Below, one piece after another: positions 26,148-53,997 of a stretch of 64,000 nt of DNA. The notes under the pieces are model-generated. The model had not been told where the DNA came from and searched no databases. It was given only the letters and a program-made list of their open reading frames with translations. Origin of the DNA: Massilia violaceinigra (GTDB lineage: Bacteria; Pseudomonadota; Gammaproteobacteria; Burkholderiales; Burkholderiaceae_D); NCBI RefSeq assembly GCF_002752675.1, contig NZ_CP024608.1:2356001-2420000 (forward strand), written 5' to 3'. Made by a program: the position numbers and the translations under genes. The number at the start of each line of letters is the position of its first letter. The first letter of the stretch is position 1.

Positions 26148-26204
26148 GTCCCACCTGCATCGTTCCCGCTGCCCTCCAATCGGTCGTCCCCGCTACCCTT
26201 CGAT

Positions 26205-26297
26205 CCGTCGTTCCCGCGAAGGCGGGAACCCAAGTTCGTGCCGGAGCCGTTATCTGTACGCGACGAACTTGGGTTCCCGCCTTCGCGGGAACGACGG
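26205..26297. repeat. palindromic repeat pair, copy 1
   Basis: A 35-nt arm (26205-26239) and its exact reverse complement (26263-26297) around a 23-bp spacer. Each arm contains the small palindrome GTTCCCGCGAAGGCGGGAAC. Related units lie at 35661-37220 and 53911-53997. This is a REP/BIME-like intergenic element between recN and hemH. As a large hairpin it may also act on the recN transcript end. Confidence 0.85.
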
Positions 26298-35507: not shown

Positions 35508-35788
35508 AGCGCGCGCGCCGCCGCAGCAGCACCTTTTGTGACCGCACAAGCGTGGCCGCGCTGCCAAGACCATGCTCAACGGTGACGGCGCCGCGTCCGG
35601 CGTTGTCGCCGCTAATGCTTTCCTAACCGGGGTCAGACCTTAATGCCGCTAACTTAAGCTCCGTCCTTCCCGCGCAGGCGGGAATCCAATTCCGCAGCGC
35701 AGTCACAGGCGGCTCCACGAACTTGGATTCCCGCCTGTGAACTGACCCAAAAAAGTTGGACACCGTTTCTACTTTTTGGGGGAAGTCG

Positions 35789-36325
35789 ATGACGAAGCAT
35801 ACGACGGCATTCAAGCTAAAAATCGCTAAGCAATATGTACGTGGCTTGATGGGCTATAAGGAAGTAGGCCGCATCAACAACGTTAGCTACGGCCAAGTAC
35901 GCCGTTGGGTACTGTTCCACCGCTATCACGGCAAAGCTGGCCTTGAACCGAGGAAGTCTGTTCAGTACAGCGCCGATGAGAAGCTTGAGGTTTTGCGGTA
36001 CATGTGGGCGAACAAATTATCGTATGTGGAAACGGCGGCCAGGTTCAATATTCGCGCGCAGGGCTACGTCGGGGTTTGGGAGCGCGATTTTCGTGATGGC
36101 GGTATAGTGCCACTGATCCGCAAACCCAGAGGAAGACCCAAGCGCATGGCTGATTTACCCAAGCAAGTTGCACCTGCCAGCGTGCATAGTGATGCCACAC
36201 GTAGCCGTGAAGAGTTGCTGGTGGAACTGAACCAGTTACGGATGGAGGTCGCCGTTCTAAAAAAGCGGAGAGCCTTAGCTCAAGCGGCCGAACAGGCTGC
36301 GGCAATGCGCAAAAAGCGCACATAG
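35789..36325 (+). CDS. IS3-family OrfA (helix-turn-helix protein)
   Basis: A 178-residue OrfA with two helix-turn-helix segments (TAFKLKIAKQYVRGLMGYKE, VGRINNVSYGQVRRWVLF; then LSYVETAARFNIRAQGYVGV) and a C-terminal leucine-rich coil (REELLVELNQLRMEVAVLKK) for multimerisation, as in IS150. ATG at 35789 follows a GGGGGA ribosome site. Near its end are two A-runs followed by G (AAAAAAG at 36259-36265 and AAAAAG near 36310) that can support -1 frameshifting into orfB; the second gives the more natural fusion (MRKK-AHIVHELRLQF). Confidence 0.92.
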   Translation: MTKHTTAFKLKIAKQYVRGLMGYKEVGRINNVSYGQVRRWVLFHRYHGKAGLEPRKSVQYSADEKLEVLRYMWANKLSYVETAARFNIRAQGYVGVWERDFRDGGIVPLIRKPRGRPKRMADLPKQVAPASVHSDATRSREELLVELNQLRMEVAVLKKRRALAQAAEQAAAMRKKRT

Positions 36326-36360
36326 TCCACGAGTTAAGGCTGCAATTTCCCATTGCGCAG

Positions 36361-37158
36361 TTGCTTGCGCTTACCGGTCTGAAACGTAGTACGTTTTACT
36401 ATCAAAAGAAGGTTGCGCAAGACGGCGACAAGCATGCGCACTTGAAGCAGGGTATCGAGACGACCTATCAGGCACACAAGGGGCGTATGGGCTATCGGCG
36501 TATCGCTGACGTGCTGCGCAAGGCAGGCCATCGCGCATGCGCCAATACCGTCCAGCGCTGCATGCAGGCAATGAAGCTGACATCGCTGGTACGCATCAAG
36601 AAATACAAGTCGTACAAGGGGGAAGTGGGCAAGACTGCGCCGAACATCTTGCTGCGCGATTTCAACGCAGAGGGGGTGAATCAGAAGTGGGCAACCGACG
36701 TCACCGAGATGAAAGTCGCTGGTCAGAAAGTGTATCTATCACCCGTGATGGACCTGTTCAACGGGGAAATTGTAGCGTATGAAATGGACACGCGTCCGGT
36801 ACTCGGACTGGTGACAGGCATGCTCAAAAAAGCCTTCCGGAAGTTGCGTGCCGACGATAAACCGATCGTCCATTCAGATCAGGGATGGCAGTATCGCATG
36901 CCGGCCTACCAGCACATGCTGGCGCAGAAAGGCATCGTGCAGAGCATGTCTCGCAAAGGCAACTGCCTCGACAACGCAGCCATGGAGAGCTTCTTCGCAG
37001 TGCTGAAGACGGAGTATTACCACCTGAACAAATTTAGTAGCGTCGACGAGTTGAAAAAAGGTCTGGCCGAGTACATTGACTACTATAATCACTGCCGTAT
37101 CAAGATGAAGCTGAACGGACTGAGCCCGGTGCAATACCGAACCCAGCATTCGCTTTGA
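36361..37158 (+). CDS. IS3-family OrfB (DDE transposase)
   Basis: The catalytic half of the transposase, in frame -1 to OrfA. The frame is already open from 36265, and the functional protein is most likely an OrfA-OrfB fusion made by frameshifting; the coordinates give the stand-alone frame. DDE residues: QKWATDVTEM (D1), DKPIVHSDQGWQYRM (D2) and NAAMESFFAVLKTEYYHL (E). An HTH_21-like segment YQAHKGRMGYRRIADVLRK precedes the core. The C-terminal YNHCRIKMKLNGLSPVQYR is the IS150-group signature. Confidence 0.93.
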   Translation: MLALTGLKRSTFYYQKKVAQDGDKHAHLKQGIETTYQAHKGRMGYRRIADVLRKAGHRACANTVQRCMQAMKLTSLVRIKKYKSYKGEVGKTAPNILLRDFNAEGVNQKWATDVTEMKVAGQKVYLSPVMDLFNGEIVAYEMDTRPVLGLVTGMLKKAFRKLRADDKPIVHSDQGWQYRMPAYQHMLAQKGIVQSMSRKGNCLDNAAMESFFAVLKTEYYHLNKFSSVDELKKGLAEYIDYYNHCRIKMKLNGLSPVQYRTQHSL

Positions 37159-37527
37159 TTTAATCAAAACACCGTCCAACTTTCTTGGGTCACTTCACTG
37201 CGCGGGAAAGACGGTTTTGCAGTTTGTGGTCAGAAAACGGCTTAACTTAGCGGCATTAGGGTCAGACCTCCGAATCGAAACACTTTTATTTCTAATCGGA
37301 GGTCTGACCCCGGTTAGGAAACTAGTTGCTGTGGTGGAAGATGAAGCTCCCCGGCGGTTCGTGTTGGCATGTTTGACAACTTGCCGGTAAGCTCTAACAG
37401 TGGTTCGATGCATTGACCTGCGTCAAGCCTAGGTCGTCCATTTGAGATGGATCAAGCAGCACTCGCCATCAGGCCGATTAGCCATTATGATGAAACGAGT
37501 GCGTCATTCGTTCCTATACCGACAATC

Positions 37528-53869: not shown

Positions 53870-53910
53870 TCGTTTAAAGCCGCCAGTTGCATCATTTGCC
53901 GCGTTACCTT

Positions 53911-53997
53911 CGTCGTTCCCGCGCAGGCGGGAACCCAATTTGGTACCGTAACCAGTGGCGCCACAAACTTGGGTTCCCGCCTGCGCGGGAACGACGG
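53911..53997. repeat. palindromic repeat pair, copy 3
   Basis: Left arm CGTCGTTCCCGCGCAGGCGG (from 53911) continuing GAACCCAATTT, and the inverse arm AAACTTGGGTTCCCGCCTGC (from 53965) continuing GCGGGAACGACGG. Same family as 26205-26297 and the unit split by the IS3 element. It lies between the response regulator and panB, which converge here. Confidence 0.85.

Follow-up and report, generated by a model that had tools for sequence, protein, structure and literature searches.

The stretch of DNA analysed here, referred to as the window, comprises 64,000 nucleotides of Massilia violaceinigra and contains an insertion sequence (IS) of the IS3 family lodged in one member of a pair of repetitive extragenic palindromes (REPs). 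The features of the locus are collected in Table 1. The IS ends read TGAACTGACCCAA.. and ..TTGGGTCACTTCA, with CTG flanking the element on both sides. OrfB matches the integrase core family PF00665 of Pfam (1.1e-23) and the NF033516 transpos_IS3 model (8e-98, 328 bits against a cut-off of 160). The rve core, the overlapping frames with an A6G motif, the TG..CA inverted repeats and a duplication within the 3-5 bp range all place the element in the IS3 family, and they bear out the initial annotation, which had described a 1460-bp IS3/IS150-group element flanked by a 3-bp CTG duplication. The span of 35655-37220 given there covers the IS together with the greater part of the REP pair interrupted by it. 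OrfA begins with a TTG at 35756 in the list of open reading frames, and the ATG given in Table 1 was preferred. Three more A6G motifs are present in the IS, all at places other than the frame overlap. A sequence search with OrfB for solved structures at E 0.001 returned no match.

Table 1. Positions of the insertion sequence, its reading frames and the REP sequences in the window
Feature	Position	Strand	Remarks
IS3-family element, IS150-like	35738..37197	+	1460 bp; inverted terminal repeats of ~30 bp; eight copies in the genome
OrfA	35789..36325	+	HTH_Tnp_1 and HTH_28 domains (two helix-turn-helix); ATG at 35789 chosen by eye
A6G motif	36259..36265	+	Within the OrfA/OrfB frame overlap; presumed -1 frameshift site
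OrfB open frame	36211..37158	+	Integrase core (rve); DD(35)E triad identified by eye
CTG target duplication, left copy	35735..35737	+	Loop bases
CTG target duplication, right copy	37198..37200	+	
Split palindrome, left half	35728..35737	+	TTCCCGC + CTG
Split palindrome, right half	37198..37208	+	CTG + CGCGGGAA
Intact partner REP of the split REP	35667..35684	.	
Intact REP pair elsewhere in the window	26203..26297	.	
Intact REP pair elsewhere in the window	53908..53997	.	

Removal of the IS and of one CTG leaves GGATTCCCGCCTGCGCGGGAAAGACGG, in which the emptied site reads TTCCCGC-CTGC-GCGGGAA, a member of a palindrome family arranged in inverted pairs. The restored palindrome is indeed intact in two other repeats of the window, as had been claimed, namely the paired REPs at 26.2 and 53.9 kb. 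A search of the window for TTCCCGC-NNNN-GCGGGAA that tolerated two mismatches found five intact copies with zero mismatches (26211, 26274, 35667, 53916 and 53974), where 100 shuffles gave a mean of 0.61 and at most 3. The genome as a whole contains 176 exact intact copies, and the reversed-pattern control has none. Since the CTG duplication takes up three of the four loop bases, the insertion point is displaced from the exact axis by roughly half a base. The palindrome agrees with the CGTC-1 class of REPs, which in the excerpted text of PMC3733652 is characterized by a CGTC tag, an 8-bp stem, a 4-nt loop and a CCA tail, and to which dRS3 of Neisseria is assigned in the same text. A perfect ATTCCCGC/GCGGGAAT stem, or a near variant with a GTC tag, is found at four of the eight sites occupied by the element in its own genome; at the window site, AAAG replaces AATG on one side.

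Elsewhere in the genome, copies of the REP pair run unbroken across the insertion point (for example at 95% identity over query positions 104-237), and matches to the stretch containing the REP pair occur in 15 of the 17 genomes that represent the genus. In one congener (G111:C23:222963-224047), seven matches to the REP pair with a spacing of 163-167 bases constitute a tandem array. The REP pair of the window itself sits within larger nested inverted repeats (35619-35659 and 37240-37321; 22 nt at 100% and 29 nt at 90%), and GGTCAGACC motifs occur at 35631, 37260 and 37301, so that the IS splits what looks like a MITE-like composite. RAYT genes were considered as makers of the REPs and rejected: the genome encodes three RAYT-type Y1_Tnp genes (L173-L175), and the REP pattern is absent from the 3.3 kb around each.

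Eight copies of the IS are present in the genome; seven of them, including the one in the window, are identical, and the eighth (L002) differs at six bases. Every one of the eight is flanked by the palindrome halves, and the loop bases have become a 3-bp duplication (CTG at five sites, CAG at two and CCG at one), including at one site (L006) where the loop region is shortened. CTG and CAG are the same base pairs on opposite strands, and thus the IS inserts in both orientations, always at the same fixed position. The claim that the insertion point is the palindrome loop therefore holds for all eight copies and for both orientations; copies at unrelated sequences with no palindrome would have spoken against it, and none of the eight is of that kind. 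At the rate observed in flanking DNA (0.81%), the chance of eight out of eight is ~2e-17, and loop-directed insertion is well supported. The window and the flanks of loci L001-L015 together contain 47 perfect GC-rich hairpins of at least 7 bp, eight of them REP-like, in a rough count that includes the flanks of L003 twice because they fall inside the window. If any such hairpin sufficed as a target, eight of eight insertions in REPs would have a chance of ~7e-7, which indicates that the element prefers REPs.

Relatives of OrfB were collected at three taxonomic ranks: in the family, matches at E 1e-60 came from 32 of 392 genomes; in the order, those at 1e-50 came from 14 of 399; and in the class, those at 1e-70 came from 6 of 369, the genome of the window being included in each count. 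Named genomes (26 loci), plasmids and E. coli supplied further relatives. The 12 plasmid relatives were chosen by hand for diversity among the matches listed (40 of 4536). The closest match to OrfB in these collections, outside the genome of the window, is 68-69% identical, and some of the collections may omit near relatives of this genome. Ends of the elements were assigned by script, and 127 loci gave 97 distinct sites with confident ends after removal of 30 (9 with no ends, 4 at contig edges, 7 repeat sites, 7 with uncertain ends and 3 RAYT loci). Among those with uncertain ends, L141 and L160 show strong palindromes and L056, L098, L124, L149 and L169 do not. A further 32 loci, comprising distant IS3 groups, fragments and poorly resolved loci, were set apart by hand as far; some of these have high identity over a short stretch, and none has confident ends (two lie at contig edges and one gave no hit). 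Distant IS3 groups are represented solely by a second IS3 element of the same genome, which served as a control.

Minimum-free-energy folding was discarded as a hairpin test as it was too permissive, a mean of 28% of flank positions reaching seven pairs; its place was taken by two tests with empirical nulls, one of them an ungapped palindrome score and the other a stem test. A site was called palindrome-centred at a score of at least 7, which 1451 of 178,044 flank positions attain, and passed the stem test with a stem of at least 8, as do 1.2% of 68,235 flank positions; the score thresholds and the set of far loci were decided after the first results were known. Palindromes are centred on 69 of the 97 sites of relatives, and 76 of 97 pass one test or the other, each of which is met by ~1% of flank positions. 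Duplications of 3-5 bp are visible at 73 of 97.

Both tests were failed by 21 of the 97 sites (L021, L022, L024, L029, L037, L038, L040, L049, L051, L076, L084, L085, L086, L093, L118, L133, L145, L158, L159, L164 and L168). Several of these (among them L022, L024, L040, L076 and L084) are by eye hairpins with mismatches or shifted loops, and were kept as misses; in L038 and L049 the halves look CGTC-like, yet both sites fail both tests. L145 is the sole site taken for ISPsy9. One of three sites passes in the α-proteobacterium Rhizobium tropici, and two of four in Bacillota (L052 and L146 pass, L158 and L159 fail). The flanks of L158 and L159, from Cytobacillus and Lysinibacillus plasmids, are alike in opposite orientation and have an imperfect hairpin in common. 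Two other misses (L085 and L086), which lie ~0.68 Mb apart in opposite orientation in genome G219, have weak palindromes and no duplications. Joining the left half of each copy to the right half of its counterpart yields two terminator-like palindromes with 4-bp duplications and scores of 12 and 10; the swapped half-terminators are probably the result of recombination between the IS copies, with inversion of the ~0.68 Mb between them.

The control element of the same genome (L009-L015, seven copies, OrfB ~38% identical) scores 0 of 7 by both the palindrome and the stem tests. For IS150 of E. coli, sampled as eight entries among the 30 matches listed together with the K-12 context, none of the eight sites passes the palindrome test and two pass the stem test (L179 and L182, which are one hokE locus in two strains). 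IS150 adjoins an annotated hok or mok gene at seven of the eight sites (L150, L176-L179, L181 and L182, and not L180), and the left flanks of L177, L179 and L182 have ATATTTCTATCAAC in common.

The 76 passing sites were sorted into classes by script. Terminator-like sites make up 56 of them, 44 with both an A-run and a T-run and 12 with one run; DUS palindromes account for 10, from two genomes; CGTC REPs for four, all in genome G018; E. coli palindromic units for three; and other targets for the last three, among which L036 looks by eye like a CGTC REP. By their sequence form, a GC-rich stem with a T-run, the 56 look like putative intrinsic terminators. The initial annotation had proposed REP-targeted transposition, and this stands for the element itself, with eight of eight copies in a REP-type palindrome; it does not carry over to the relatives, for which REPs are a minority and most resolved sites are terminator-like. 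One such site can be followed as an empty target: with its two halves joined, the ISEcB1 site between yfbM and nuoN has matches in 5354 of 5426 E. coli genomes. In 4160 of these the match covers at least 80% of the 116 nt, and the five matches listed are identical at 116 of 116 positions.

Pairing between the arms was analysed at the 77 sites of relatives outside the REP, DUS and palindromic-unit sets, with the arms taken at the duplication edges in a fixed register and a 3-bp duplication assumed where none is visible. Positions 2-8 pair at a frequency of 0.545 versus 0.315 when right arms are shuffled among the sites, and the values become 0.602 and 0.327 when each genome contributes a single site that bears a duplication (n=37). 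For neither set did any of 2000 shuffles reach the observed value, and all four pair types are present at every position of the 77 sites. At the 60 duplication-bearing sites, the stem columns hold no more than ~0.5 bit out to position 8, and 0.4-0.8 bit is reached by A between -9 and -12 and by T between +9 and +12. Pairing in the fixed register does not rise above shuffles for IS150 (0.179) or for the control IS3 (0.286). The Massilia element itself reaches 0.429, less than its shuffles give, since the duplication is displaced from the axis of the 4-nt loop; the palindrome appears once the axis may shift. An A- or T-run stands beside 53 of 64 perfect-stem IS sites, a set unfiltered for GC content or REPs, versus 20 of 120 GC-rich non-REP hairpins in the flanks. 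This excess indicates that a typical target resembles a bidirectional terminator in form and is not just any hairpin.

Target specificity appears to go with the element. Genomes G354 and G334 contain 62+72 and 86+88 matches to the CGTC pattern, and the four and two copies of the group sampled from them are in terminator-like hairpins; in genome G018, with 209+209 CGTC matches, four resolved copies are in REPs and a fifth (L098) has uncertain ends. The comparison is consistent with the transposase setting the target. In a quick tree of 84 entries, in which long branches leave several placements unsure, the palindromic-unit, DUS and IS150 entries each form one starred group of near-copies and terminator use is spread. 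The five users of CGTC REPs need three changes on this tree, and a tree that unites them in one clade is not rejected (p-AU 0.76). The IS150 entries join two terminator users (95, starred), and since IS150 shows no palindrome targeting here, its nested position indicates that the loop rule is not clade-wide.

We consider it probable that the Massilia element is an IS3 element with IS150 and IS1397 among its relatives, that its target is the apical loop of a CGTC-1 REP, and that it belongs to a group ruled by insertion into the loops of short hairpins. The group rule is seen as a pattern of sites that are mostly terminator-like and otherwise DUS palindromes, E. coli palindromic units or CGTC REPs; the E. 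coli genomes in which the ISEcB1 palindrome stands without an IS and the swapped half-terminators of G219 count in its favour. As to mechanism, a -1 frameshift would produce the OrfAB transposase. IS3 elements move via a circle, in which the two ends meet as an inverted repeat around a short spacer. A hairpin with a loop of 3-5 nt would mirror the geometry of that junction, with two symmetric arms and a short gap. To integrate the excised circle, a transposase with two-fold symmetry would engage the symmetric target arms, whether these are extruded into a hairpin or cruciform or are simply symmetric. The two active sites would be placed at the edges of the gap and would join the IS ends to the edges of the loop, which becomes the duplication. 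Users of REPs and palindromic units would be specialized forms of this loop rule.

A bolder reading, which we judge slightly less likely than not, is that a large group of IS3 elements recognizes hairpin or cruciform form and not sequence; intrinsic terminators would be the general target, and the preferences for REPs, palindromic units, DUS palindromes and, in IS150, hok loci would be later refinements. Examples come from β- and γ-proteobacteria and from Bacillota, and the one of three α-proteobacterial and two of four Bacillota sites that pass lower our confidence in this reading slightly. Somewhat unlikely, in our judgement, is recognition of sequence, whereby each transposase dimer would recognize a palindromic consensus particular to it in ordinary duplex DNA and the capacity to form a hairpin would be incidental. 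Such recognition would suit the Massilia element, which uses one near-constant sequence at one fixed place, as well as the single unit common to the IS1397 sites and the single motif of the DUS users; the copies in terminator-like hairpins of G354 and G334, genomes rich in CGTC REPs, also imply that the elements discriminate. It is the terminator users that fit it poorly, given stems of so little information whose arms nevertheless pair far beyond shuffles with all four pair types.

Coupling to transcription, with the site exposed or recruited through pausing of RNA polymerase or through the terminator hairpin in the RNA, seems to us improbable. The excess of A- and T-runs would be expected from it, but the run on the opposite side is as strong as the T-run (both at 44 of 76 sites), for which symmetry or easy melting would serve equally, and the REPs of the Massilia genome and the E. 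coli palindromic units are targets too. It is very improbable that insertion is random and that only copies in neutral intergenic palindromes persist: REPs and terminators are as a rule intergenic, but neutrality cannot position an insertion to about one base of a loop, and by palindrome the control IS3 of the same genome scores 0 of 7 and IS150 0 of 8. That the palindrome halves are part of the IS and travel with it, as the halves beside every copy might suggest, can be dismissed given the intact palindromes without an IS, the position of the halves outside the duplication, outer flanks that differ among the eight copies and the unrelated stems of the relatives.

Insertion into hairpin loops would turn scattered reports of REP-loving insertion sequences into a testable rule for one transposase group, a group of jumping genes that may find its targets by hairpin form. 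If the rule is structural, it would provide a DDE transposase that chooses targets by the form of DNA, with a bearing on the accumulation of insertion sequences in REPs and terminators and on the design of landing sites. Each insertion splits a terminator or a REP and may alter read-through between genes. The swapped half-terminators of G219 offer a directly readable record of recombination between IS copies.

Among known elements, IS150 has an OrfB 51% identical to that of the Massilia element and a similar general layout, and differs in having none of its eight sites centred on a palindrome. IS1272 of Staphylococcus, like the Massilia element, targets inverted repeats, and is described as replacing the inverted repeat. 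Group IIC introns also take inverted repeats or terminators as targets, and move by reverse splicing. ISEcB1, an IS3-family element of E. coli with an OrfB 55% identical, has one distinct site, a palindrome with an A-run, which is terminator-like and not a REP. No description of IS3 elements in terminator loops was recognized in titles and the beginnings of abstracts of the open-licence literature, and the use of terminator-like loops across many relatives may be new. Targeting of REPs by IS3-family elements has already been published, the excerpted text of PMC1525189 describing IS1397 of E. coli and ISKpn1 of Klebsiella, which like the Massilia element insert into palindromic units and whose transposase itself is reported to set the target, as well as ISPsy8. 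IS1397, cited as the precedent in the initial annotation, proves to be a relative, with an OrfB 52% identical, a place on the same tree and three palindrome-centred sites; its target is the E. coli palindromic unit rather than the CGTC-1 REP, and its duplication measures 3-4 bp at the three sites. ISKpn1 is likened to the Massilia element by its published description (PMC1525189, excerpted text), and so is ISPsy8 of Pseudomonas syringae, also of the IS3 family, with five of five copies in REPs of another type at the symmetry axis of the hairpin and a 3-bp duplication (PMC1525189, excerpted text). The Massilia element is a new case of REP targeting by an IS3 element, with a CGTC-1 REP as its target.
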